Positions 622-37,900 of a DNA stretch of 64,000 nt are shown here, piece after piece. Source of the DNA: Anoplopoma fimbria (lineage: Eukaryota; Chordata; Actinopteri; Perciformes; Anoplopomatidae); NCBI RefSeq assembly GCF_027596085.1, contig NC_072451.1:9439098-9503097 (forward strand), in the 5' to 3' direction. A program made the translations under genes and the position numbers. Every line of letters begins with the position of its first letter. Positions within the stretch are counted from its first letter, which is position 1. The notes beneath the pieces were generated by a model, which worked only from the letters and a program-made list of their open reading frames with translations, had not been told where the DNA came from and made no database searches.

Positions 622-2284
622 GGGGGGATACACTTTATGTACACACACACACACACACTCTCTCCTGGGGAGGGTGATAGTTCTCGCCGGAGTCGGAGCC
701 AAGAAAAGGGATTGGAGGAGCTCTGTGGTTATCAATGGAGACCAGTGACCACTGGGATTCACACTGGGATGACTGGGAAATGGTTTGTGTATGTGTGTGT
801 GTGTGTGTGTATGTTTGTGTGTGTGTGAGAGACATTCCAACAGCATGTTCACACTGCAAAAACAAATCTTTATTTGTTTGTGACTCAGTTCTTGAAATCT
901 CTTTTTCCTTCAAATGGAAAAATCTGTGAAATGAATTCACTTGTTTCGATACCAGACAGCTTGATGGAGGAATATAGTCAGACTGAAGTACATGTTCTTG
1001 ATTCCTTTATTATTGTCTTATTTTGAAGGTCTTGCGACGCAGTTCTTAACATCCATCTTTGAGCTATTGTGTCTGATTCAGAATTCAAGGCTTTAAAAAA
1101 ATGATGACGCAAAAATGGCGAGGTGGATGGTTAGTTGTGTAAAGTGTTTGACACCAGAGACATCATCTGTTAACATCTTGTCTCAAACCAACAGACAACA
1201 CTTTTTTATCTTTCAATCAGCACGTGCCACATAACCGCAACTTCCTCGAGTTTGATTCCAGTCTTGAGACCTTTGGTTGCATGTCACACCCATCTCTCTC
1301 TGTACTATAAAATAAAGGTAAAAACATAATTAAACATATGCAACACATCTCACATTTAGTGATTCTAGCAGTGTGTCCTCCTTATTCTGACCTCCTTCGA
1401 GACCCTGAAGCTCATTTCCAGAAACTTGGGGTTATTTCTCATTTTATAATTCACGATTATATTTAATATGAATTCAACCTTTTCAAGGTAAATCTCAGAG
1501 CCGAATAGTTTCTGTTGTGTTTCTTGCAGTGTGGTGTTGTTTAGCTGAGTCCAAAGTCTCATTGTTTGCACATTGCATTATGGGTGATTCATGGCATGTG
1601 TGCGTCTTGTTTTCGGCGTTAACGAGGTTGGCGCTGACTTGATTTAAGTGAAATCTGCCTATTGTCTGCTGGTATTACATGTACACACACACGCAAATGG
1701 GTGAGATTATCACTCCTGGGTGTGTGTGTGTTTGTGTGTGTGTTCCCCAGGAGACAGTGGACAATGAGCGTCTTTTCAAAACAAAAGCAGAAACAGGCGC
1801 ATCCCCACGGTCACAATAGGAGTCGTGTACTAGCCGCTTCGCTAGCCGGATTACCGCGGCGCTACCAGCGGCAGGATAACTCTCTAATCCTGCCAGCATA
1901 TCTCAACATTCATTCAACACCAGCACCACCAGGCAGTGCAGGGTTGGTTGGGGGTGGGGAGGGGGTTAGGGTTGTGCATGTGGTGTTTCTTGATCAAATT
2001 AATTAGCAGTGAATAAAGACGCAGCGTAAGAGCATTAGCGCGGCGGAATCCAGCCCTAGCTTGTTTTCTTAGTTTAGTTTATCAGCGAGATCCAGGACTG
2101 TCCATCGTTAATGCTCACACACATTCACACAATGTATAAATGCATACATATATATACAGCATAATTAACACATGCACATGGAATGATTGGTAGTATGGAT
2201 CCAGGTCCAGAGGGGATTGTGTTTTGTTAATTAACAGCAGTGTGAAGGAAGATGGGTGAGCTGTGGATTCATAAGCAGCTGACA

Positions 2285-2660
2285 ATGGTTTGGATGGATG
2301 GATGGATGGAAAGACAGACGGATGGATGGATGGACAGATGGATGAACGGAGGGATGGATAGATGGACGAACAGATGGATAGATGAACTGATGGACGGATA
2401 GATTATCTGATGGAGTGATAGATGAACTGATGGATAGATGATGGATGACGGATGATGAATGGATGAATGGAGGATGGATGATATATAATTGATGGATGAT
2501 GCACGGATGGATTTACCGACGGATGAACTGATGGAATAGATGTATAGATGGAAGGATGGACAGACTGATAGATGGACTTATGTCCGAATGGAGGGACTGA
2601 TGGATGGTTGGATGGTTGGATGGTTGGACAGATGGACGGACATCCAGTGGGAATGACAGC
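2285..2660. repeat. Degenerate (GGAT)n minisatellite
   Basis: Imperfect tetranucleotide units of GGAT/GATG type with substitutions (ACGG, ATAG, AACT) run for about 375 bases. The HPSVHPS-like peptide read on the - strand is a repeat artefact. Confidence 0.9.
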
Positions 2661-3120
2661 TTTCTGACATGTGCAAACTACCAAGTGGAAGTACTGGGAG
2701 TTTTCCTGGTGGGCTGCTACACAGATCAGTGTGATACAGGTGATCGGTTCAGTTGAGGGGGCCCTATGTGGTTTAAATGTGAGGTCCACCTCCCCACGGT
2801 TCCCAGGTCCGGTTACCTGGTTCAGTAACATTAAGCCATTTCTTCCTCTCCAGGCTGCATGAGAGCAAACATACCTGGGTGTGTCATTCTTTAACAGTAC
2901 AGATTGGGGTTATAAGATATGAGGCAGTGTCACGTTATGCAAACAACAACGTAGAAGAAATCCGGGAATGGAATCTATTTCACCCTAGTGACAGTGGAGA
3001 CCAACTGCTACATCTGTGAAAAAAAAAAAGTGAAATAATTTGAAATAAACAGACGGGACACTGACAATGTTGCTGACTCGTTTTACATGAATAACACGCT
3101 GTTGTTATGTGTTGATTAAG

Positions 3121-5893
3121 GTGATTCCATGTTGGTGGTGGATGAGGGCTCCTCCGTCTGTCTGTGTGGGGGGGTCCTCGGGGCCTCAGACCCTGACAGC
3201 CCCCCCGACCGGCTGACCTTTCACCTGGAGACTCCTCCTCTGCACGGCTTCCTGGAGAACACGCTGCCGACGCCCGGATCCGAGAAGAGCAACGCAGGAG
3301 TGCGAGTCGGTCAGTGTGTGTGTGTTTGTGTGCGTGTTTGTGTTTGGCACACACCTGACCTGACTCTAGCGTAACTCTCCTTTCCCAGAATCCTTCAGTC
3401 TCGTCCACCTGACCTCCGGTTTCATCAACTACGTCCAATCAGAGAGCAAAGGGGTGGAGCCGACCGTTGACCAGTTGTCCATTAGCGTGAGCGACGGGCT
3501 GCACCGCTCTGCCCCCGTCCCCTTCTACATCATCATCAATCCAACCAATGACGAGGTGCCTTCGCTGCTGCTCGCCAACTTCACTGTATGTCCAAGACAA
3601 ATTTATTTTTTACCAAAAACGAACAATGATAAACATTTTTCTTCCATCCATTATCCTCATGGGGGCGCTAGCATAGGTGGAGAGTAATTCCCCTTCTCCG
3701 CCTCCCACAGGTGAAGGAGGGCGGGATGAGGGAGCTGACTCCGTCCATACTGAACGGCTTCGACCTGGACGCCCCCCTGGACGTCCTGACCTTCATATTG
3801 CTGCAGCCGCCGGCTCACGGCAGCCTGATCAACGGCATCTACGGCACAGAGACCAGCCGCTACAAGGAGATGGGGGCCGACCTCCTCCAGAGGAGCCTCC
3901 CCGTCACCTCCTTCACCCTGCAGGAGCTCCGACAAGGTAAGAGGGACGCCTAGGAGGTCGCTGCGTCAAATAGATGTACCGACAAATAGCATAAATTCTG
4001 TAAGTAAGTACTGTACTATTAAAGTAGAGCATACCGTTTTAGTTGTTTGCATGATTTTCTTGCCCCTTAGTTGCCCCTACACTTATCACTTTCATAATTA
4101 AACTTTTCTAAAATCCTGTTTCAATGTTTATTTCATTGTCAAAAGTAATCCAGTTGTTGTAGATTTTTGCTTACAGTGCAAATAAAAAGCTGCTAGAATC
4201 TAACCAACATGACTTCTCATGGTGCAGATTCACCAAAACGTTCTGGCTGCACTAGCTTAAAAATGTTGTTAGCATCACCATTAGCATGTTGGGAACTGTA
4301 GTGCTAGAACTCAGTTCATGTTTATCCCACGTACGAGACATAAATCCATGAATATAAGCTTTTCAGCCAATGGTCCACCACATTAGTCCAGACTGAAATA
4401 TCACAACAGCTATTGGATGGATGTTCATGAACTTGACATTCATAGAGGATGAATCTGTCTGGCTTTGGTGATTCTCTGAATCTTCACATAATGCTACCAG
4501 CCGGTCCAAGTTTAAGTGTGTCCAATGTTTCTGTTTATCTGTCATCAGTTCTGTTTGTGTTGTGTTTTACACTGTCACTACATTACACTATTATTCATCC
4601 TCTGGAAACCATGAATCTGTACAATATCGCATCACAATCCATTAAATATCTGTTGAGTGATTTCAGTCTGGAGCAAAGTGGCCAGACTGCTATCGTAGCT
4701 AAGAACAGTGTCAGAGCACGAATAATGCTGCCGTTCTGACAAATGATAACTTTCTGTATTGCCCAATTTATTTATGCAATGTTGTGATGGCAAATAAAGT
4801 CAGTGAAAACTGAGCCAAAAATGGGTGGGAGAGGAGGAAAATGATACATGTTCTTGTACATTAGTTGGCTACTTATCTCTACTTTCTACAAAAAATAAGC
4901 AGTAAATAGTCGCCCAAACCGCGATACAATCCCGCGTCCTGCAGCTGTTATATATACTATATTTATATATATGTAGAGCTGCTTACCTGCCTGTTCATCA
5001 CACCAATTATCATTGGACCAACAGTGTAAATATTGCATTCTGTCTGTCTTGTTGTTTGGTTTGGGAGGACGTCCTCATTTTACGTGTATTTGGCCAATAA
5101 AAGATTAGCATGAAAACAAAAAAAGCACTTTAAATTGATAGACGAGGTCCCGCCCTCAGGGAGGACAGCATCAGACCTCCTCTGCCACCACTCCCTCACC
5201 TGTCCTGCAGGTGTCACTGTTGAGGCAAATTAAATCATAATTTGGTTGGATTTTTTTCAAAGTAAAAAACATTATAATATTATGAAATATAAACGATACT
5301 GAGATTTGTAAATGGTTTATTTCAACCACTTACTGTTGTTCATATTTTGATCTTCCTCTAGAGGCGGAGCTCATCCTCTGTACTAGTATGCGAGTGTATA
5401 CATAGGTGTAAGTGTGTTTGCACATACAGTTTGTATGCAGATGTTTCTGTGCGTTATCTCTTTAACATTTCTGCGCAAAAATACATTTCTTTATCCCTCC
5501 CTCCCCTTCCCCCTCCTCCTCCTCCCTCTGCAGGCATGAGGATCGTGTACATGCACGATGACACGGAAACCCTGGAGGACGCCGTGGCTCTGCGGCTGAC
5601 AGATGGCGTCCACACAGTCCAGGGGACGGCTCGGGTCACCGTGCTGCCGGTCAACGACGAGAAACCACGACTGCTCAAGTACACGCCAACACGAGCGCAC
5701 GCACGCACACACACACACACAAACACAAACACGAACGCACGCACACACACAGATGTGAGCCGATATGAGGATTTAGTGCTTAATGCTTGTTAATATGATA
5801 TTACCAGAAATAAGTGACTGTGAGAGGCTTTAGGTCAAGGTCGCCAGACAGACGCAGAAGTTTTTGCTTTGCGCATATGAGTAGCTTCTATTT

Positions 5894-12219: not shown

Positions 12220-15200
12220 CAGAGTGACAATTGACAGTGCAGTGGACCTGAAAAATGAGCCGTGTGTGTCTACAAATGAAAACAGGCCTTTATGTGAGTG
12301 ATTGATGACTGAAGCTGCCGTCAGTGTTACTAAAGAGACAGTCATGAGATTAATTACTGTCAATAATTTAAAATCAAGCTCCTCACAAAGACACTTATTT
12401 AAATGAATTATTAGCATTTCACACACATTTTTTTATATATTTTTAAATCTGTTTTGCAAAATTAAAAAATATTATTCAAACAGCCTCACAATAAAGGAGC
12501 TACGCCACTCATTTAGTCTTCAACTTCAATTCAGTTGTGGGACTTTCAAGAGACAGAATCAACAAAGAACGATTCAAATCTGTGCAGCAGAAGAAAAGAT
12601 ATCCCGACTTTAAGTAGTCCAAAAACATTGACTAACGACTGTCATTACCTATCTGTCTCTCATCTCTTCTTTCCAATCATCTTTCTACAAATAAAAGGAG
12701 GAAATGCCCCAAAAAAGGGAAGGGAAAGAAAGAAATGCCAAAAGCTAAAACCATCAAAATGTATATATATTTTCTAATCTGTTATTATTTCGTGGGGACA
12801 TACAGTGAAACGCATCTTCCCAAAATTCAATTCAATTCAGTTTATTTTGTATAGCCCAGAATCACAAATTACAAATTTGCCTCAGAGGGCTTTACAATCT
12901 GTACACATGCGACATCCTCTGTCCTTCCCTCACATCGGCACAGGGAAAACTCCCCAAAAGAAAGCAAATGTTCCACAATATGTGGATCTTTTAGAGAAAC
13001 AGCTGAATTAATACGAAATGAAAACGTATGTAATGATAAAAAGTGAAAACTAACTTTGATTCTGGAGCGACAGAAAAGTTAATTCTACTTTTTGGTCCAT
13101 AAACTAAAAAAAATGACTTATATTTGGTGTTTCAGTTGCAACTTATGCAACAGAGTCATATTTTTCCTCCTTATAGTAATATTAAATGTGTGATTAACTT
13201 GTAATTACGTCCTTAAAGGCTTTACTGATAATGATAGATTGATAAACAGTTGGTATAATCTCAGATCTGCTCCTAACCAAACTGTCTTTTGTCTTCACAG
13301 TTTTGTCGTCACCAACGGCGACTCGTCCCGCAGCGGCACCCTCCACTTCACCATCGAGCACGGTGACCGCATCCCGCCGACCCTCCACCTGAACACGGGC
13401 CTCCGGCTGCAGGATGGCTCCACGGAGACCGTCTCCTCCGACCGGCTGCAGCTCACCGACCCCGACACCACCGCCGCCAACCTGAGCTACGTCATCACTC
13501 AGCTGCCACTCCACGGCAAACTGCTGCTGAGAGGCGTCCCTCTGTCACCGCCGCTGACCTTCTCCCAGACGGACGTGGACGAGTTGAACCTGGCTTACCG
13601 GCACGACCCGGGTAGCCCGGCGGACATTGACAGGTTCTACTTCCTGCCGATGGACGGGATCAACAGAGGATACCTTGAGTTTGGACAGCTGAGAGAGGAG
13701 CCGGCTGTCTTCAACATACAGGTGAGCACAACACACAATAGTATAGTTTTCTATTTCCTCCACTCAGAACTCAGACAGTCTGTGCTGAGCTGGAAGAAGT
13801 ACTCGGATAGTTTACTTGATTAAAAGTACGAATACCACACAGCGAAAATACTACACTAGTAAAAGTCCTTCATACAAAGATATTAGCAAGCATAACACTT
13901 TATTCCAACTACTAAAAGTAGAAGTTCGTTATGACGAATGGCCCATTTCCGAATTTTATTTTATTTTATTTCAATATATTTTATTTTATTATATTTAATT
14001 TTATCTTACATTTTTATAATATTATTTAATATTAACAGCAATAAAAGTGTATATGAAGTAAAAGGCAAAGGTCAACGTTAAAGGTCTTACTGTCTGAGTC
14101 ACAGATGGATGAATAAGGGCCATGTTGGATTTATTTATTCATGTAAATATACTTTTAAATATATGTATTATTTGTTGAAATTCAGTGATTATATTCCAAC
14201 GTTGTTATATTTTGATTTCGGGCGGCAACTCATTATTTCATGGAAGATTATTGAATTGTTTAGATCATAAAATAGTGTTGAAGGTGACGTCTCATTTTGT
14301 CCCTCCAGCCGTCCAAAATCCCAATACACCCCCGTGTCCTGGGATATTAACAGTAGTGGGAAGCAACTAAAACTAAAATATTTCACGCTTCCACCTTCAC
14401 AAATGTGAGGATCTACTGCTTTTAATGAATGTATTACATTATTTTGATGTTTGTTTCCTGATTATACTTTTCAATATATTATTAGTACTTTTACTGAAGT
14501 AGAGAATCTGAGTACTTCCTCCACCACTTGATTTTAAAGTAAAGCACTTTATCTTTACGTTTGCTGTCCAAAAACGTCCTTCAATTTTCCTTTAGAAATA
14601 ATTGGGAAATTGGGGAAAAGCAGGAAAGAATATTAAACCAAGAACCAAAGAAAATAGTTGGAGGAAACGTAGAAACTTCAATCATGTACAAGAACATGTT
14701 TAATAGTTGTGACATTCAGTTTTTCACTCTTTACTCAGCTGCTTGTTACACATGACAGGAGTGACACCCAGTGGCTGAAATTAAGAACTGCTCGTCTGTT
14801 TCTTTTCTACTGTTGATCTCTGACTTCCTGTTACCAAACGTCCAGCAGAGGAAGCTTTATTAGTGTCTCTCTTTCTGTATTCATATAGCTGGTGGACAAA
14901 ATAACAGGAACATTCTGAGTGATGGATTTACATGTTCGGGACTTCCTGCTTGTCTTCCTCTACATTTCAGAACCAAATGTTAGAGAAGTGATTACTTTGC
15001 CGATCATATTTTAAGATAAGATCATTTGAATCCAAACTTTAATCATCCTGAGAAAAATTGTTGGTCAGCAGTTGCAGTACAAAGCAGGAGAGAGTGCAAA
15101 TATATAGAGCACAAATAAAAACATAATATAAACATTAAATATAATCAATAAGGTACAAAGGTGTCTTGTCTTGTAACATGTGTAAGCTCCTTATTGATGG

Positions 15201-18200: not shown

Positions 18201-20155
18201 ACCGGAGCTACGCCAGCGCAAGGTGCAAACACACACTTCATCTCAGCTTTCCTGTTTTTATTTTTCCTTGTGAAGAATAAATATCCAATACATCTAAATC
18301 AATCTTCAGCTTTTTATAAATGTGAACTACATTTACACTGATCCTTCAACACCCCCATGGTGTTACCGCCTGTAAAAGCTGTATTAGCCAGGCTGACCTA
18401 TAAACAGTCAGAGTTGGCCTCATTGTTCTGTGTTCAATGTTGTGATAATTCTGCTTTTTTTTTAGACGGGGAAGGCGATCAGCAGCTCCTGTCCTGACGG
18501 TTGGACTCACTACAGGAGGAACTGCTACATGGTGGGCTCGTCTGTTGCCAGCTGGGCCAGCGCCGAGAGGAGCTGCTCTCTGCTGTAAATAACACAAAAA
18601 GCACACTTTTACTTTTGTTTTATTCATTTTCTAACATCAAAGCATAACAATTATTTTTAAACTGCAGTTTGGGTTTTATCACCAGAGTTTTATCCATAAT
18701 TTCTATTCCTTTTGATAAAATAAAATAGAATTATGAATGAAAAAATTGTCAGGAAGGTAATATAAACTAAGTTGCAGTAAACTGGATTATCCTCTTAAGC
18801 ATTAGAGAAGTTTTTTATAAAAATATTTTGTAATCTCTGGAGGTGATAGTGTGCAGGATTCTGTGGTTCAAGGTGTTCTTATGCTGTTTGTCTCATTCGC
18901 CTTGAGGATTTTAACAGTGTGGAAGATAAACAGGTTTTATCAGCACCTTTTTTTGTTGTCAAATTTCTTTGAAAAAAATAAGAAGTTATATGTCAACCCA
19001 ATATTCATATTCTTTTAGCTCTGTTTTTGGTCTCCACCAACTCCTGTGAAAGATATCAGTCTCTTTAGCTGCTAAATGCTCAACTATGTTCTCCTGCTAG
19101 TCTCGTTCTGTATCTGTCTGTTGTTTGCTGCTGAGCAGGTAGTTTTCAGTGGCTTTTACTGCTTTTTCACTGAAAAAAATGCTGTGAAATTGGTGAGAGT
19201 GAACCAGAACAGTACAGTCGTGGGCCTGGACAGCTAAACAAGCGAAAACTTCTGTAAAGATGAGTGGAGTTCCAGATTCGGTTGATAATTCTCTGAGGTT
19301 CATCGCTACCAGTCACACTGACACTTTATACATATTTAAAGTAAAAATATTGATTATAGCTTATTTAAAGAAATATGATAATTTAACCAGATTTTTTTTA
19401 CAAGGATTTAATCACAACAGTTAAATAAAATCATTGAACAGGGAAATGTGTTCTAGCCTATTCATAATGTACTTAAATGAAAAATAATATGAATAAAAAG
19501 TTGATGAAAAGATGAAAACTGTTTAATCTGTTATAATGCTTCTTGTAAATTTAGGCATAAACCTGAGTTAAGGTGCCTGCACATGCATCAAGTTTCAGTT
19601 TCTTGAAGTTGTATCAGTATGTGTGAACACAGCTGTAAACGTTTGTCATTGTGTGTCAGGTTTAACAGCAGTCTGACCAGCGTGCGGTCCAGAAGAGACA
19701 TGGCCTGGCTATGGAAGTTCGCAGGGAGGAAGCCATTTTGGATCGGTGAGTGGCAAGATGGTGACAGCAAAATAGCCGAACTTGAGTCTTCAAGGACTAT
19801 GTCCACTACTTATATACAGTCTATGGTAAAAAAAATACACTGGATTGAAATTTGTCAAGCAAAACTCAGACGTTAAAGTCAAACAGATTTAGGCTGAGAA
19901 TATTAGAGTTGCATCTCTGAATCCTTGGCAGTAATTGTTGCTAACTCTGCGTGTCTCTCAGGTCTGTCTGGAGGTGCGGGTCGCTGGATGTGGGCTGATG
20001 GTCGGACGCTCTCCTTCTCCAGACTGAGGGGGTCTGAAACCGGCGTCGGCTCGGACTGCGTGCTGGTCGAAAACCCCAGAAGCTGGATCTCCACAAGCTG
20101 CTCCCCTGAAACTCAACACACATTCATCTGTTCGTCGCCAGCTCACACTCACTGA
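3121..20155 (+). CDS. frem1: FREM1, 3' half: extracellular matrix protein with CSPG repeats, Calx-beta and C-type lectin domain (19 exons, 5'-partial)
   Basis: Exons seen: 3121-3309, 3389-3585, 3711-3936, 5534-5678, 7509-7650, 8370-8574, 10548-10812, 13301-13721, 15566-15767, 15860-16004, 16419-16548, 16684-16756, 17130-17279, 17364-17716, 17936-17980, 18061-18222, 18466-18584, 19660-19745, 19962-20155. All have AG/GT borders and the phases join without a break, giving about 1149 codons ending in TGA at 20153-20155. Domain order is six CSPG repeats, Calx-beta, Pro-rich linker, C-type lectin. In the FRAS/FREM family only FREM1 combines CSPG repeats with a terminal lectin domain. FREM1 works with FRAS1 and FREM2 in a basement-membrane complex that holds epidermis to dermis, notably in fins. 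Mammalian FREM1 has twelve CSPG repeats, so repeats 1-6 and the signal peptide should lie left of the window; the first exon here starts mid-codon. Exons are GC-rich against AT-rich introns. Whether this is the a or b paralogue cannot be told. Confidence 0.95.
4250..4520. repeat. Dispersed fish repeat in frem1 intron (tentative)
   Basis: The stretch with AGCTATTGGATGGATGTTCATGA, CATTCATAGAGGATGAATC and GTTAGCATCACCATTAGCATG resembles a widespread teleost interspersed repeat known for these phrases. It is diverged and no ends could be set. The rest of intron 3937-5533 is AT-rich and shows nothing else. Confidence 0.4.
5897..6003. repeat. (AT)n microsatellite in frem1 intron
   Basis: About 107 bases of alternating AT interrupted by two short T runs. 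It is self-complementary and prone to slippage and cruciform formation. A CA-rich tract lies upstream at about 5697-5750, directly after an exon donor. Confidence 0.95.
7745..8085. repeat. Dispersed repeat, AAGTACTT/ATACTTC family
   Basis: The sequence opens GTGCTGTACTAAAGTACAG and closes AAATACTTCATCTGCCACTGG. The phrases for adding AAGTA/TACTT and the closing TACTTC-CTCC-CACTG recur at 6165-6270, 13780-13870, 14345-14530, 20320-21050 and 36240-36400. They look like copies of one teleost non-autonomous element. Most copies are incomplete and heavily diverged. Confidence 0.55.
8804..8890. repeat. (CA)n microsatellite in frem1 intron
   Basis: An uninterrupted CA run of about 87 bases between exons 8370-8574 and 10548-10812. 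A GC-rich unique patch follows at about 8940-9130. Confidence 0.97.
10196..10488 (+). repeat. LINE-type 3' tail copy ending in (TTGAA)n
   Basis: About 290 bases nearly identical to 49478-49779, ending in repeats of the pentamer AATTG. A shorter inverted copy is at 12823-12958. Shared phrases include CTGTCCATCCTGGGAGAAGG and CCTCTGAGGCAAATTTGTGA. A short constant 3' end with a pentamer tail is typical of a non-LTR retrotransposon or a SINE that uses its tail. The family name is not asserted. Confidence 0.7.
11225..11760. repeat. Purine-rich GAGA / CAGA tract in frem1 intron
   Basis: Three purine-biased stretches: GAGA runs at about 11230-11270, a G-rich patch at 11340-11380, and AGACAGA-type units at 11575-11760. 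The Ser/Leu-rich peptides read on the - strand are artefacts. Confidence 0.8.
12013..12220. repeat. (GT)n, (GGGT)n and (CA)n microsatellites in frem1 intron
   Basis: GT run 12013-12066 passes into GGGT/GGTG units to about 12100; a CA run follows at 12191-12220. Unique GC-rich sequence lies before it (11880-12010). Confidence 0.95.
12823..12958 (-). repeat. Truncated copy of the (TTGAA)n-tailed element
   Basis: Reverse complement of the last ~135 bases of the 10196-10488 copy, starting with AATTCAATTCAATTCAGTTT. It is truncated at its 5' end, as expected for target-primed reverse transcription. Confidence 0.7.
13780..14530. repeat. Diverged dispersed-repeat fragments in frem1 intron
   Basis: Phrases at 13780-13870 (AAGTACTCGGATAG, AGTAAAAGTCC) and 14345-14530 (ACTGAAGTAGAGAATCTGAG, TACTTCCTCCACCACTTG) match the family described at 7745-8085. 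The intervening AT-rich stretch shows no other structure. The rest of the intron to 15565 shows nothing that I can name. Confidence 0.5.
16419..17279 (+). other. frem1: FREM1 Calx-beta domain exons
   Basis: Exons 16419-16548, 16684-16756 and 17130-17279 encode a single Calx-beta domain. Visible signatures are VEEGSAKPGRDF (the ExGxAxxGxDF strand), a following IQFDPG turn, and DDGLEENHETFTV (the acidic DDxxxExxExF Ca-binding-type motif) ending VEIIDPRGG. This is the place expected for the one Calx-beta of FREM1, directly after the last CSPG repeat. All three splice junctions keep the frame (phases 0, 1, 1). Confidence 0.92.
17364..18222 (+). other. frem1: FREM1 linker exons with a polyproline tract coded by a (CCT)n microsatellite
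   Basis: Exons 17364-17716, 17936-17980 and 18061-18222 make the low-complexity linker between Calx-beta and the lectin domain. Codons 17414-17449 encode twelve prolines in a row from an almost pure CCT repeat, followed by H-P-P. The rest is rich in G, R, P and acidic residues with no recognised fold. The exons are in frame (phase 0 at the last three junctions). The tract is probably length-variable between individuals. Confidence 0.85.
18466..20155 (+). other. frem1: FREM1 C-type lectin-like domain exons
   Basis: Exons 18466-18584, 19660-19745 and 19962-20155 encode the terminal domain. It opens with CPDGWTHYRRNCY, then the helix with SWASAERSC, then FWIGLSGG, GRWMWADG, and the closing cysteines in SDCVLV, ISTSC and FIC. 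That is the six-cysteine long-form CTLD layout plus the WIGL core. No EPN, QPD or WND sugar/calcium motif is present, so calcium-dependent sugar binding is unlikely; protein binding is more probable. The protein ends 8 residues after the last cysteine. Confidence 0.92.
19750..19830 (-). repeat. Dispersed repeat fragment within the lectin-domain intron
   Basis: The stretch with CAAGATGGTGACAGCAAAAT, AGCCGAACTTGAGTCTTC and ATATACAGTCTATGG is the reverse complement of part of 54640-54760. It is a short fragment placed directly after the donor of exon 19660-19745. Confidence 0.65.
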
Positions 20156-25091: not shown

Positions 25092-28000
25092 CTAGTTTTC
25101 ATACTGGATATCATATGCCAGGGGTCCATTAATGGCAAAGCCAAGGTAGAAAGAAACTTTTTCTGTGCTTGAACCACTTCTTATACCAGCAATTAAAGCT
25201 GGACGCACAGGGATTTTCAGTTTGCCATAATTGGCAAACACCTCTCCTTGTTCAGTCGTTCCACTGACTCTGTGAAGGCGGTTAATAATTGCTTTGTTTT
25301 TAAATATATCTCCATTCCGCCAAAGTTGCGACAAGGTATCACGGCGCATCTCTTTAAAATTCTCATCTAGTTGGCGTTTAGAAACAAGCCTCTTGAGTCC
25401 CTCTTCTTTCCCAAGGTAGAGGAGGGCAATAGTGTTCCTTATTCGAAATGATAAAAACAGGCGCTTCGATTTCCGAATTGCTCTCACATATGTCTCAATT
25501 TCTGTGTTTTCATGCCTAGGACTTGGCCAGAGTAACAGCATAGCCAGGTAGTATGGATCTGGGAAGGGATACTGAAGTCCTACTTCTTGGAGCGTTTTCA
25601 AAAGTAGAGTAGAGAGGTAGCTGTAACTCTTTACATGTTTAGATTTTCTTCTCAAAACGTAAAGAACTATGTTTGACAAAATGTAATTGATGGTTTCCTT
25701 TGTCTTTTGTTTTTGGTTGATAAGTTGTTGTTGTTGTAAGAATGCATAGCATTCTGTGATCTTCTCAATCTCCACGGCAGGATTGTCCAAAAGCTGAAGA
25801 ATTCCGGAAAATGTATCTGCATGTTTCTCTTCAAGAAACAATCTTCGCTCCTCAATAGCGATTTCCAAATTGAGATGAGGATGTTGTTCTTGTTTTATTT
25901 CCTCTGAAGTAGTGCAAAAAAGAGATACATACTTTTTAAAAAGTACACTGACAATCGAAAGAAAATCTAATTTAGAGGTGTTCGCTTTTATATTTGTGAA
26001 GTAAAAGACAAGAAGTTCGAAAATTTCTTTTACTTCAGATTTTAAACTCTGTAGAAAGTGTTCGTGTTCTTTGATTATCTCCACATATCTGTTGTTGAAC
26101 TCATTGTCCTTCTTATACACACTGGTGATTGGGATTGTTTTTTTCAGAAAACTCTGCAAGTACTTCTTCTTCATTGGATGATTTTCCTCAAAGAAGGGCA
26201 ATCTGCTCAATATCTCAAAGACCAGGAAGGCAATATCCAGCACCCCTACATAGCCATTAACATCATATGACTTTCTGGGATAGTCATCTGACTCATCATC
26301 AGCAGCTTCTGTCTCAGGTTTGTCATCTTCATTTGCCAGCTCTTGAGCCCTTTTAAATGCTGCAATAGCATTTTCTGCTATTTTAATGTTTGTTTTTAGG
26401 TCCTCTGGATTGCGTGAAGTTTCCTGCTTTTCTCTGTGGTTGTTAGATTTTAAATTGCTTTTGTGAATCTGCCCAATTGTGTCAAATGTGTATGGGTTTT
26501 GTCTGATGTTCTTGGCCTTTTCAGCCCATTGCAGAGCCTCTGGGAAGTCACTCTCCTTGATGTACAAATATCTCGCAAGGGCCTGAGGAATAGACGCACT
26601 TGTCACAAACCTGGATGATGCTTTCACAAAGATGTCTTGGACAGTTTGTCTCCCTTGATCTTGGTGGATTTTGCCTATAAGAGGAGAAAATGGTTCTCTC
26701 TCATCTCCATCTTTCTTGCGCTGCCTTTCAATCAACATTTGTTGAATAGAGAGCATGAATCTGTGTTTGACAACACCAATACTGAAGAACAGATCACAAT
26801 GAAGAATCTCCATAGTGATATCACTTACTTTTAGTAAGTAGCTTCTCTCCAACTCTTCCAGACATGCAGATGCTATGGAGTGATGAAGGATGCGGATTCC
26901 TTTGTATCCTCCCAAGTCTTCAACTGTGTCCATGATGAGAAAGTTTGAGTATGGCTCCATTCTGCCCATTATGCTGTCCCCCGACCATTGTATCATTTTC
27001 ATCCCCAGAAAATCTTTACAGAGGGAAAGAGAGATTTCTGATTCTGCCATATAAGTGTTAAGTAACACTAGAAAGGCAAACAGTCTGGCCTTATTTGAGC
27101 TGTAATCAAAGTTCTCCAGTGTGTTACGAGCAAGATCCTTGATGTACTTTTTGTCAAAGTTGCTCTTCATGATCATGAAGCTGTAAAAGTTTTCAGGTTT
27201 TTCATGAGTTTCTTGAAGTTCTTTGAGCTTCTTTTCAAACTCCTTCTGCTCTTCTTGTGTCAATGAAGCAGTTATGAATTGACTTTGTGCTGTGTTCTGC
27301 TGTTTGTATTGCTCCTTTGGGCTGTGGGATCGAACACAGTTAAGGATGATGACTTTGCAGTTTGGTGCGTCAACCACATTCATGTTTAAGCCATACTCTA
27401 CTGCTTTATGTATGCAGTTCACAAGTATGTGAGGATTCTCGGCTTCTTTTGAATCATCGACTAACAGCAAAACTGGAGATGGTTTCTCACTTTCAAGTTT
27501 CATGAGCGTACTGACTTGATTGGCAACTTCTTTCTTTGGCAGTGTGTTGTCCTTCAGTACAGCACACCTGAACTCTTGACGGAGATCCCACATCACATGC
27601 ATTGCTAAAGTGGTACCTCCACAGCCTGGATGATGAAACAGATTGAGTAGGGCACACATGTTTTTGGAATCCCTTAACTGAGACCTTATCATCTTCTTCA
27701 CATTTTCGTACTTGTCCCGTTTAACAAATGGCTTCTCTTTGTCTTTGTCACAGAAGTAGAAGTTCCACCATTTGACTTTGCCTCCTTTGTAGAATTCCTC
27801 CTCAACTCTGATTCTGTGGTCATGAAACTCTGAACTGTTTTCATCAATTGTGTTTTCACACTGATTCATACACAAAATATCCAGAGCTGCCAACAAGTCT
27901 TCATCCTTCTGCTTTAGAACAACAAAACTAGAACCAGAAGAGGGAAGCAACCTTTCGGATGACTGATTGAATGGTCCCAGTGCCATTACGGTTCCATTGA

Positions 28001-28702
28001 CCTCACTGAGGGTCAGATCATATATTGATCGTGGGTCGATGTCAGATTCACACTTTTCTTGTACAAGCTTCCGCCATTTCTCATACATGCCCTGAGATTC
28101 ACAAATAGTGATGATGCTTTCCTCTTTTGTGTGTTTGATGAAAGATTTGTAGATGTCAAAGATTGGGTCTTTTTCAGTGTCCACAGGTGAGAGTAAGAGG
28201 AAAATTATGAGACTTCCATTGTGTAAAAGAACGTCAGGGTTGCAAATAAATGAAACCAACTGCTCTACATCTCTGCAAGATTTCCTCAGCCAGTTTTTAT
28301 AGTCTAACTCCTTGTTTGACTCACCATCAAGGTCATGTCTGCCATTGCAGAAGACCCAGCTGGTGTGTTTGTAGAGGTTAAGGCCTTTTATCACTGTTTC
28401 AGTTTGTCCTTGATACTGTGATGGTGTATGCAGATTGGCCACCCTTGACTCTCTGTAGAAATGACACAATCCACCTTGAGCAACAGAGTTAGGGTCAAAG
28501 TCCAACACACAAAAGGGTTTCAGCTTATTCAAAAACAGAAGATACTCTACTTGTTCTGGACTACTCTTGTTGACAACAACAATAAATTGGTCATAGTTGT
28601 CCAGTGAGTTCCCACCGCAAGTTAACAGATTCTTAAGTTTTTCACCCTGGTTAGCTTCTTTCTTCAAAACGTCTTTCGAAAGACTCTGCTGTTCCAGTTG
28701 AC
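25092..28702 (-). other. samd9l: Large single exon: SIR2-like, P-loop NTPase, TPR-like and C-terminal SAMD9 core
   Basis: This 3611-base exon holds 1203 codons without a stop before TAG at 25094-25092. It starts at acceptor TTTACACAG at 28704-28703. Only about a dozen residues (QLEQQSLSKDV...) separate the PYD from the SAMD9 homology, which begins with GGNSLDNYDQFIVVV. Family markers include SRVANLHTPSQYQ, WVFCNGRHDLD, GGKVKWWNFYF, VKRDKYE, the Walker A GCGGTT and a hydrophobic Walker B ending DD. A long single core exon is also how mammalian SAMD9/SAMD9L are organised. Confidence 0.95.
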
Positions 28703-30336
28703 CTGTGTAAACAGTAAAATAGATGCATTATTGAGTAAAAGAAGACATTCAGAAAACAACATCTTAGGTAAAGGCTGGTTTTCTTATTGTCATTAAATCC
28801 AATGTAAAAAAAAGTAAAACCACAGTGTATTGTTGTGAGACTCTACCAGTTAAGATGTAAATCTTTAAAATCACTTCACAGAAATATATAGTCACAGTAA
28901 TTTCCTAAACCTCAGGTCAATATAGTTTTTTTCTCAAAAGTACAGTAAGAAATGCAGTGCAATTGTTGGGGACATTGTTTCAGTGGTTTTGGTCTTTGTT
29001 TATTTTAAGACTTAATTAAATGTGTCGATTAGAATGTGTCAACAAGCTAATATAAGAAACATTACTAAATAATGCAGACTATCAGCAGAATACAAAAATA
29101 ATGTATTTTCAAATGAATGCAACTTCACAAATTGAATAAATATCGGTTGTCTTACCCATTTTCTTTTCCAGCTGACGAGCAAGTTCTCGCTGATTGATTT
29201 CTTTTAGAATGTCTTTTGTGACCTGTAAAGCCTCCTTGCTTCCATAATGGTCAGTCATTAACTTAGTGGTGTCCATGGTGTCCTTGCCCTCCAGTTTACC
29301 TCGAGGAATAGGTCCATGCTTGGATTTACTGTATTCTTGTAAGTAGAAATTAAAATTCTTTAGGTCATCTTTTAGAAGGTTGTCTAGGGTTTTCTGGATC
29401 TCCACAGGGATCTTTAGTATGTCTGATGGGACTGTGCTCTGCAGGAAGAAACAGAAATAAATCTTAAGTGTCAACTTTACGAAGTTACCCGTGTCCATAT
29501 AAAATTTTAAAAAAAGTATTTGTGTGCTAACTAAATATTTGTATTGTATATCAAAATGATCTATACATGCTGGATACAAGAATGCATATACTACAAACAT
29601 ACTGTAGAGATTTTACCATATTAGCTCCTTGTCTCCCGGGTCCTAAGTCGTGTGGATTTGGCTGCTGATTTCCCTCCTTCTCTGAAACCATTTGGAATGG
29701 CAGCTGTGCCTTTTCAGATTCCCTTCCCACAATTTTGTCTGTTTTTGATTCAATTTTATATAAGGAATCTGGTTGTTTGATTGCTATGGCCTGAGCCAGA
29801 CACGATTCATGTTGAGTGGGTTCTGGAGATTCTTTTTGGTCTGTGCTAGTGTGAAGGATTGGTTGCAGTGTTAGCTCAGGTTTTTTGTTCAACTGACGGA
29901 GTTCTGCCAGAACCTTCACGGCAGGACCATTTTTCAAATCCAGATCCAGAAAATCCTGCTTTTTGAAGCAAACAAGGCAATCTCCAGACACATCTTCCTG
30001 TTGGAGTCGTTCTGCATATTTGCTATATAACCTAACATGCTGCAGTAACCACTGGTTTACTTGCTCCTTTGTCCAGTTTTTCACATATCCTGGGAACTGT
30101 GGTTCATGTTGTGATCCTTCTTTCAGACTTTCTAGATAAGATGTGATTTTTACAGCAGGACCATGCTTTATTTTTAATTCCAATATGTCTTTCTTTTCAA
30201 AGACAACTAAAATGTCTCCAGACACTTCCTCTTCAAAGAATTTGTCGGCATATGCCTCATGAACTTTGACCACTGTCATCAGCCACAGATGGACGTCTGC
30301 CTTGGTCCATTTTTCAATTGAGGGTGGCAGCTCCAT
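25092..30336 (-). CDS. samd9l: SAMD9/SAMD9L-like protein with tandem SAM domains and a PYD (3 coding exons)
   Basis: Coding exons on -: 30336-29617, 29438-29156 and 28702-25092. Donor and acceptor sites are canonical, phases are 0 and 1, and the joined frame gives 1537 residues, close to the ~1580 of mammalian SAMD9/SAMD9L. ATG at 30336 is chosen because the SAM domain starts at once after it. Order: SAM ~8-72, SAM ~85-150, polar linker to ~240, PYD ~245-330, SIR2-like ~345-600, P-loop NTPase with HHPGCGGTTLA at 691-701 and VLLLVDD at 745-751, TPR-like ~1030-1100, C-terminal OB-like segment (KLKIPVRPALIAGI...). Family members are interferon-linked cytosolic antiviral and growth-restricting factors. 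The AlbA_2 domain of the mammalian proteins is absent. The frame is intact, so the gene is probably functional. Confidence 0.95.
29156..29438 (-). other. samd9l: Exon encoding a pyrin (PYD/DAPIN) domain inside the SAMD9-like gene
   Basis: The 94-codon exon reads IQKTLDNLLKDDLKNFNFYL, then GPIPRGKLEGKDTMDTTKLM and ALQVTKDILKEINQRELARQ. This is the fish PYD layout: LxxLxxxDLKxFxxxL, IPxxxLE, DxxxLMxxxYG, AxxVTxxILxxINxxxLAxxL. It is a self-contained exon (phase 0 in, phase 1 out), which is how PYD exons are arranged in fish NLRs and other inflammasome genes. PYDs pair with PYDs of adaptors such as ASC. Family assignment is by motif; a death-fold relative is the only serious alternative. Confidence 0.85.
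29617..30336 (-). other. samd9l: Exon with two tandem SAM domains
   Basis: Two homologous halves are visible. WTKADVHLWL...FFEEEVSGDILVVF matches WTKEQVNQWL...LQQEDVSGDCLVCF, and LELKIKHGPAVKI matches LDLDLKNGPAVKV. The pattern W(T/S)xxxVxxWL ... GxxL ... DL.L..GPAxKI is the SAM fold of the SAMD9 N-terminus, duplicated here. A polar linker of about 90 residues with no fold follows. Donor ATG|GTAAAA at 29617/29616. Confidence 0.93.
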
Positions 30337-34999: not shown

Positions 35000-37900
35000 G
35001 ACACTTTTTTGGTAGAGGTTTTTCACAATTTGTATTAAAAAATCAAAATAAATTGAAATGTACACCATTGTTCTGTCCCATAATGATTTTTTTTGTCTGT
35101 AATACTCTTATAAATTATATTTTCAAAGTAAGCCTTGTAGAATCTCCTAATGAAAAGATAAACATATTTGCATACTTTTCTACTCTCTGCAGTCGGTGCT
35201 TGTCAGTCTCCACCAATCATTTACATTACATTTACATGTAATCCTGATAGATAGGATGTGGTGCACTCTTGTAGTCATATACAGTCATGTCCACATTTAG
35301 TATCAAACACTATCTTTTTTACTGAGTTTGTTTTTATGTATTGCACTCTACATACAATTTACCTACTGACACATTTAGCAATTTCCTGTCAAAAGCTCAA
35401 GTCAGAGAAATAAATAAATAAGAAAGCAGTCCTGAGATTTTACACAAATGCTTACCACAACAGATATAAATTAAAATCGGATATTCAGAGGAAGTTGTTG
35501 TTTAGTATTTAAATTGAGAAGTGTGTTTCAAAGCATGAAAAGACAGATAATTTCCCTCCATTTAAATCCTTTGTCGCCTCATTAAACTGGATTTCAACCA
35601 CTGACCATCTCTCCTCGAATATGAGATTAGTAATATATTTCCTTAACAGATTTAACCTGCATGGTCTATTGCTGAAATTAATACTGCTCTACGCAGTGAA
35701 AATGTTACCTTCCGTGATGTCTTCACCCTGATTGCCAACACCTCCACATCTCGTCAGGAAGCATCGAGAGGACTCAGAAGCCTATAAACCCAGAAGTCTC
35801 TTTCGTGACTTTAAATGAGAAAAAAGCCGATGTACAAGGCAAAAACAAAACCGTGGGCAGGCAGAGGTAAAAAAAAAAAAAAAAGTCTGGCAGAGAGGTT
35901 GAGGTAGAGACATGGCCTGGGCAAAACTGTTTACATCTGAAAAAATCAAGGCTTGAAAAAGTGGCTTGAGAGCTTTGCAAAACCACAAGACAATCTGGTA
36001 AAGGCTTGACGGAGACTGAGGCTTCCTGATATGGCACGATTGCACCTATCACTACTGCAGGGAGCAGCTCTACAGAGACACACCGACACACAGCAAGGCC
36101 ACTGGAGAGCTGGAGAACCAGATCCGTCTGCTTTATAAACACAGTGGTTATATCAACAGAATAATAAAACCTTTGTGGAGTTCACCAATGTTTTGACCGC
36201 GAGTAAACTCAACCATGTTGTGTTTTTCAGTGCTAGATTTAGTGATTTGATTGGAATACTCTACAGTAGAAGTCCTGCATTGAAATGAAATACTGTTCAT
36301 ATCAAGTGAAGAGTAAAAAGAGAGGCATTATCAGCACAATGTACTTAAATTGACTTAACCTCCATTCACTGGGCAGCTTTGAATTTTATATGATTCTGGA
36401 TAGTTGGATAGATGAGTTGGACTTTTTTTTTGTTAAGTGTTTTGAGGGCGTGATTCAATACTTTACATATCTTAACATAATGACAGATTAAAGTTGTTTG
36501 GGCCCCTTTTAGTTTCGGCGCCCAGACTGCCCCTTTTTTCCCCTGAACAGGATGTAGGCCTATTTCGCCAATGTTTCTGACCTTAATAGCTACGGCTTGT
36601 ATGTCATGGCAGGTGTATGCTCAGTACGTAAGCGGCTCTCAAGAAAGCTGCAAACAGCAACTCTACACACCCGGCATTCGGAAAAAAAGGCATGTTTTGA
36701 ACAGGCATTGCACTAGTTTTATCAAAGTATCAAAGTAAACATACTCATTATGCTGCACACAAAATATGAACAATACGTGCAATATCTGTAATATACAAGT
36801 TGTAATGCAAACACTTGAGTTAATAGTGGGTAATGCAAAGGTAATGGTTTGGTAATGTTCATATGAAAACATGTAACAGTTTGCAATAAAGAACATGTAA
36901 ACCTGTACCTTTACATGGAGAGCTGAGGTTTTTGTGATATTATGAGGGGGAGTTCGGTGTTCAGCAAAGTCTGAGTCTAATATCCACTTTCGGAGTGTGG
37001 TAATCTAGAGTGCATTTAGTGCCCGTCCAACTCCACTTTTGCGATGGATAAAAGACGCACAATCTGGGCGCAAAGTGCGGCCCAAGGGGTTGTATTCAGC
37101 CTGTTAATTAATCAGAGGTGTGTATTGTGAGTAGAATAAGTTTATCTTCATTTTACTGTTGGACTTCACAAGGCTCTAGAGTTTTTGGAAATGTTATATC
37201 ACACAAGTTAAAAATAATCCTACATAGCCGTCCCTAGAATTTTCATACTTAAGACTTAAGATTTAATTACCGTATTTTGAGCAGTTACAGGTTGGAACTA
37301 TTGTCACAATAAGGTCTGCGCTTCAAATTTCTCAGAAATTACTTGATTCAATTTCACTTGAAACAGCTCAGCACAAAAGTTCTTAATTAATGACGAAATA
37401 CTCATTACTTTTTATTCAATTAACACAGGAGTCTACAAAAAAATGCTCGTTGGCAATGGCGGGGGTCAAATCTCCACTGATCTACCCCGATCACTTTTTT
37501 TTCTGTAAAAAATCTTGTGTGTCAAGAGGCATTACCACTCTTTTCTCTTTTAGTTTCATTGATCTTTGTTTTAGAAAGGTAGAGAAAAAGGTGAACTTCA
37601 ATGAACAAAGCTTTACATCATAAAAGCACAACTAACTACAGCACAACTAGTTAAAATTCAGTGAGGCAGAACGAAAACAGACAGACGAGTTTAATTAATC
37701 CGCACTGAACATATGGAAAAACACATTCACAAGACATTTAAAACATAAATTAAAAATATGAATATAATTTACAAGAAACTGAAAAGGTGAAAGAAAGAGA
37801 GTGTTAATAATTTTGTGCTCCTCATGGAATTAAAAGCAAGGAGAACAAAATTGTTCTAAAAAAGCGTTTAAAGGTGTGACTTTGAAGATTTAATAGACGC

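Follow-up and report, generated by a model that had tools for sequence, protein, structure and literature searches.

Does a SAMD9-like gene of the sablefish (Anoplopoma fimbria) still carry the tRNase (AlbA_2) effector of its mammalian relatives, or has that domain been exchanged for one of another kind? The question is raised by a gene on the minus strand of a 64,000-nucleotide stretch of contig NC_072451.1 (positions 9,439,098 to 9,503,097; the window, below), in which it runs from 30336 to 25092. A sequence-only reading of the window had proposed that two SAM domains and a pyrin domain (PYD) stand here in front of the SAMD9 core, that the PYD has taken the place of AlbA_2, and that the protein is a sensor that signals through ASC and a caspase instead of cleaving RNA. 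SAMD9 is an antiviral protein, and a PYD as a rule sets off inflammation. The structure as first read is real and well conserved; the functional reading is plausible, judged from sequence comparison.

Exons and domains of the sablefish gene

The three in-frame exons, their GT..AG junctions (29617/29438 and 29156/28702) and the 1537-residue product all proved to be as first described, in coordinates, frame and length (Table 1). Skipping of the PYD exon, which the sequence-only reading had named as a result that would speak against it, breaks the frame when computed and leads to an early stop. The public sablefish protein (P0001, 1322 amino acids) is identical throughout to the residues from 216 on; it begins there and is therefore without both SAMs.

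Profile searches uphold both the SAM and the PYD assignments. In the 1537-residue protein Pfam reports SAM_1 in two stretches (best at residues 9-72), SAM_2 (best at 85-134) and SAM_PNT across the same regions. PYRIN matches residues 254-327 with 72.3 bits (E 3.8e-20, cut-off 22.9), and with phmmer the PYD exon is similar to the solved PYDs of Pyrin, NLRP10, ASC and NLRP3. The only remaining Pfam match at E <= 1 is DUF2852 (E 0.97), which falls well short of its own cut-off. NACHT, FISNA and LRR gave no Pfam match in this protein; NLR exons of the same genome do give FISNA and NACHT. The spacer between PYD and core, first put at about a dozen residues, is indeed short, at 16 residues in sablefish (331-346) and 13-18 in 67 of 69 aligned rows.

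What follows the spacer is a SAMD9 core. With exon 3 as the query (1202 residues), residues 13-1199 align to human SAMD9 chains (9zjr and others; phmmer E 7.7e-250), nearly the full length, and the homology begins directly after the human tRNase part. The SIR2, TPR and OB labels come from the SAMD9 literature and from this alignment, not from profile matches of those names. The P-loop is of the lysine-less Walker A type described for SAMD9 in PMC5445408; this pattern is matched in 66 of the 69 rows, with GG in 52 and GA in 14.

Table 1. Features of the SAM-SAM-PYD gene, in window positions
Feature	Position	Strand	Content and basis
Exon 1	30336-29617	minus	Start codon to GT donor; residues 1-240, SAM-SAM and linker; open frame
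SAM domain 1, residues 9-72	30121..30312	minus	Pfam SAM_1; phmmer match of exon 1 to Polyhomeotic SAM structures
SAM domain 2, residues ~85-149	29890..30084	minus	Pfam SAM_2/SAM_PNT; family SAM profile 80.6 bits
ATG, start of public NCBI model P0001	29689..29691	minus	Residue 216 of the three-exon model
Intron 1	29439..29616	minus	178 bases, GT..AG
Exon 2 (PYD exon)	29438-29156	minus	Residues 241-334 and one base of codon 335
Pyrin domain, residues 254-327	29178..29399	minus	PF02758, 72-79 bits; phmmer to PYD structures
Intron 2	28703..29155	minus	453 bases, GT..AG
Exon 3	28702-25092	minus	SAMD9 core (SIR2-like, P-loop NTPase, TPR, OB) and stop codon
P-loop HHPGCGGTT, residues 691-699	27609..27635	minus	Lysine-less Walker A of SAMD9, GGT/S with upstream histidine

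Exchange of the tRNase domain and its history

Is AlbA_2 truly gone? Pfam finds no AlbA_2 in the 1537-residue protein. Such silence is insufficient as proof, because Pfam also reports no AlbA_2 in L010, an AlbA-type paralogue of the same genome, although phmmer aligns that region of L010 to tRNase domain structures of human and rabbit; in the precomputed Pfam column PF04326 appears in only 4 of the 120 L010-type homologues listed. Pfam was rejected as the sole test on this ground, and a profile was built instead, with the tRNase region of L010-type proteins as its source. L010 itself matches with 420 bits, and 119 of the 120 L010-type homologues, most of which were used in building the profile, match too. 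Two controls are independent: the paralogue L011, which is outside the profile set, scores 151 bits, and 26 of the 34 proteins of a third search (from zebrafish, carps, conger, frog and others) also match. Five of these 34 are SAM-PYD or SAM-SAM-PYD, three have neither PYD nor AlbA, and none has both.

The tRNase profile matches neither the 1537-residue protein nor any of the 120 PYD-search homologues listed (211 were found). A search with it through every frame of the 64-kb window at E <= 10 likewise gave no remnant or detached AlbA_2 exon, another observation that had been named as counting against the sequence-only reading. The acidic and basic residues of the SAMD9 tRNase-SA (E184, E196, E218, D241, K198, K214, R221; PMC12331169) are not present in the aligned columns of the sablefish protein. 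PYRIN, for its part, is reported for 0 of the 120 L010-type proteins listed, as read from the precomputed Pfam column. Since the PYD occurs in no listed L010-type protein, the tRNase in no PYD-search homologue and both in none of the third-search proteins, the two domains are never found together among the 274 proteins compared. Pfam, the tRNase profile, the human SAMD9 alignment and trees of the core (below) thus give good support to the replacement of AlbA_2 by a PYD on a kept SAMD9 core.

The same genome has kept two SAM-AlbA_2 paralogues, L010 (C16) and L011 (C11); paralogues were counted exon by exon, and the counts are lower bounds. With the human tRNase positions mapped by hand from the alignment, both keep E184, E196, K198, E218 and D241; K214 is R in L010, and R221 is K in L011, both of them conservative changes. 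The seven residues are also incomplete in some other AlbA rows: P0265 has V and H at 218 and 221, and one frog half has E at 221.

The survey of further fish homologues bears out the SAM-SAM-PYD arrangement, which is found in 73 of the 120 listed (74 of 121 with the sablefish protein); being common to many species, it is not due to chance. Four more are SAM-PYD and two have repeated modules. Among the others, 9 have a PYD and no SAM, 4 have SAM-SAM and no PYD, 5 carry SAM alone and 23 lack all three domains. There are therefore isoforms or models that do not contain the PYD, and by sequence inspection some of the PYD-less models look intron-derived (read-through). When the set is confined to the 68 listed homologues of 1480-1580 amino acids (the other 52 fall outside this range), SAM1 is covered in 67, SAM2 in 68 and the PYD in 68. 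Median identity to the sablefish protein in this set is 69% for SAM1, 74% for SAM2 and 60% for the PYD; the four core parts have 69-77%, and the linker between SAM and PYD has 37%. It is of note that P0012 (Nibea albiflora) has SAM-SAM-PYD twice plus one PYD, and P0075 (Prochilodus magdalenae) has SAM-PYD twice; each is a tandem gene fusion or an annotation join.

Could the arrangement be an annotation mix? In that case the main transcript would not unite the SAM-SAM, PYD and core exons, and the gene would yield a PYD-core protein and perhaps SAM products of their own. The start of P0001 at residue 216 and the nine listed homologues with PYD and core only agree with this, but the junctions are canonical and in frame and SAM-SAM-PYD is the arrangement in the 73 listed homologues counted above. 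Moreover, for five homologues of 1522-1555 amino acids that carry SAM and PYD the contigs (source tag lgn) measure just 5177-6057 bases, a size that suggests spliced transcripts rather than genomic DNA. We consider an annotation mix very improbable.

When and how often did the exchange occur? In a core tree of 41 rows the 18 PYD-clade rows form one clade (Shimodaira-Hasegawa-like approximate likelihood ratio test, SH-aLRT, 100), which spans characiforms (Colossoma, Hoplias, Astyanax, Salminus), salmonids, pike, cods and percomorphs. In a second core tree, computed under another model and without the long row L011, the clade again has full support (100/100) and is present in 200 of 200 bootstrap trees. 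One of its rows, P0245 from Salminus, has no detectable PYD. The clade is nested among AlbA-type relatives, closest to SAM-AlbA proteins of carps, zebrafish, conger and Salminus, whose own grouping as one clade has support of only 58/23. No PYD was found in carp-family rows among the matches listed (120 of 401). Judged by these trees, the passage from AlbA_2 to PYD is one old swap with a single origin in the sampled set. This direction is the simplest because the AlbA-type rows also include frog, the L010-type proteins and L011, and it agrees with the published view that AlbA_2 is part of the ancestral SAMD9 core (PMC5445408). Salminus brasiliensis is represented twice, by P0271 as an AlbA-type row of the sister group and by P0245 in the PYD clade, so a duplication came before the swap or along with it.

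The number of SAMs tells a further part of the history. A single SAM is present in the three sampled characiforms in which a PYD was detected, as against two in the 14 other PYD rows, and for this reason the second SAM probably arose later, by tandem duplication; the SAM tree (65 columns) agrees, with weak support, with such a duplication once the characiform line had split off. A source for the PYD in one particular sablefish PYD gene was also sought, but the PYD tree (39 rows, 80 columns) did not resolve it: the SAMD9 PYDs are not one group in that tree, and two long rows fall among them.

A possible route through ASC

What might a SAMD9 core do with a PYD? SAMD9 has been modelled as an autoinhibited STAND-like sensor that opens, oligomerises and switches on its N-terminal nuclease effector (PMC13245274), and the NLRP3 of non-cyprinid fish engages ASC through contact between their PYDs and activates caspase-1 (PMC9978379). 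We regard it as fairly probable that in an old teleost SAMD9-like subfamily the AlbA_2 effector gave way once to a PYD while the STAND-like core was kept, and that this PYD nucleates ASC. The resting protein would be autoinhibited, as proposed for SAMD9, and its C-terminal part would sense a viral or damage cue. Nucleotide-dependent opening of the core and oligomerisation, aided by the two SAMs, would then gather the PYDs; the clustered PYDs would nucleate ASC and a CARD caspase, and the output would be inflammatory cell death instead of tRNA cleavage.

The positions equivalent to ASC contacts (roles from PMC7830601) were read from a hand alignment of the PYDs in 69 rows. The K21 equivalent is K in 66 rows, that of D48 is D in 57, that of D51 is acidic in 66 (62 D, 4 E) and that of E13 is acidic in 54 (33 D, 21 E). 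Partners may exist in the genome as well. Near 22.07 Mb on C20 one strand carries a PYD exon and, 2.7 kb away, a CARD exon; their joining is putative, and the pair looks ASC-like by its resemblance. CARD exons also adjoin caspase (C14) exons, for instance at C3:15.374-15.376 Mb. Signalling via ASC and a caspase is plausible because such PYD-CARD and CARD-caspase neighbours are present.

Several observations weigh against this route. The position equivalent to ASC R41, a type-I contact whose change to alanine disrupts ASC filaments (PMC7830601), is basic (R or K) in only 32 of the 69 rows. The PYD is internal, behind two SAMs, and not N-terminal as in NLRP3; it is less conserved than the core. 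In the core itself, 14 of the 69 P-loops have GA instead of GG and three are outside the pattern. The public sablefish model starts behind both SAMs, and among the listed homologues, as counted above, there are some that lack the PYD, the SAMs or all three domains.

Some of these points would suit a PYD that is an oligomerisation or regulatory part: a scaffold together with the two SAMs, a decoy that damps NLR or ASC signalling, or a docking surface for the tRNase-type paralogues. The R41 equivalent that is not conserved, the internal place of the PYD at 13-18 residues from the core, its lower conservation than that of SAMs and core, and the two tRNase-type paralogues kept in the same fish would all fit. 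That said, the K21, D48 and D51 equivalents are well kept, and the PYD is covered in every one of the 68 homologues of 1480-1580 amino acids. By eye, moreover, the R41 position is also variable in other PYDs of the sablefish genome, and its variation is therefore not peculiar to the SAMD9 PYD family. We consider a purely scaffolding or regulatory PYD rather unlikely, and retain nucleation of ASC as the working proposal.

Other features were seen in passing. PYD and CARD exons are densely clustered in L030, L027, L035, L042 and L043 (C20:22.03-22.08 Mb), where more than one ASC-like gene may be present; for many fish a review (PMC9978379) gives the number of ASC genes as one. L019 439-1866 and L022 265-1704 (C13:27.60-27.62 Mb) are single frames of 476-480 amino acids with a PYD, and the L019 frame, when scanned, also carried a DM9 repeat. 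In the window itself an exon-like frame at 13194-13823 on the plus strand has a Cadherin_3 repeat and is perhaps part of a FREM/FRAS-like neighbour gene. Interferon response elements were sought and discarded as candidates: the strict pattern occurs once in the window (19591-19602), on the downstream side of the gene, and 42 of 100 shuffles contain it at least once. A looser pattern occurs 4 times, against a chance mean of 5.08; one of these sites (37775-37784) is 7.4 kb upstream of the gene.

Relation to known systems

The sequence-only reading thus stands in part: a PYD is found in place of the tRNase on a SAMD9 core, but the novelty is less than had been claimed. A fish SAMD9 subfamily with both SAM and Pyrin was reported by Mekhedov, Makarova and Koonin in 2017 (PMC5445408), who also drew the analogy with inflammasomes. 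The passages of that paper on the subfamily do not state the number of SAMs, the exchange of tRNase for PYD, its single origin or timing, or its breadth. A literature search by title and start of abstract, with most subscription journals outside its scope, found no experiment on the subfamily, and PMC9978379, a review of teleost inflammasomes, makes no mention of SAMD9.

Interferon induces fish samd9-like genes, whose induction is also described in gill pox (PMC6612602, PMC7509425), the subfamily being unspecified in the relevant passages, and a trout study of 2025 (PMC12648952) describes induced samd9-like genes as potentially acting through tRNA-Phe. Salmonids have PYD-type copies (P0099, P0103). 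Fish samd9-like genes should not be read as tRNases by default, and action through tRNA-Phe would be unexpected for a PYD-type copy. A core that is kept while its effector is exchanged is a natural test of the modular STAND-sensor model: if the core is modular, activation should give specks, not loss of tRNA. Possible, if somewhat doubtful, is a 'SAMD9 inflammasome' in the full sense, in which the nuclease was swapped for the PYD no later than in the common ancestor that characiforms share with higher teleosts, and a SAMD9 cue now nucleates ASC and kills the cell. If true, related cores with different effectors would stand side by side in one animal, with a tRNase (C16 and C11), a PYD and perhaps a CARD (C7).

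How does the sablefish protein compare with known proteins? Like the fish subfamily of PMC5445408, where loss of AlbA_2 in some members is mentioned, it has SAM and Pyrin on a SAMD9 core. With human and rabbit SAMD9/SAMD9L it shares the core of SIR2-like, lysine-less P-loop, TPR and OB parts and a SAM at the N-terminus, a domain that vertebrate members of the family typically have; those proteins, however, have one SAM followed by an anticodon nuclease, which is absent here. Another relative is L039 in the same genome (positions 1661-5179; C7:4.948-4.952 Mb), which also has SAMD9-type core sequence and a death-fold domain exon on the same strand. In L039 that exon encodes a CARD and lies at the 3' side, about 0.55 kb downstream of an 892-amino-acid SAMD9-like exon that has neither PYD nor tRNase; L039 is possibly a SAMD9 core with a C-terminal CARD. 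Finally, the NLRP3-type NLR sensors resemble the sablefish protein in placing a PYD effector on a STAND-like nucleotide-binding core, whereas in the latter the core is of SAMD9 type, with no match to NACHT, FISNA or LRR, and the PYD comes behind two SAMs.

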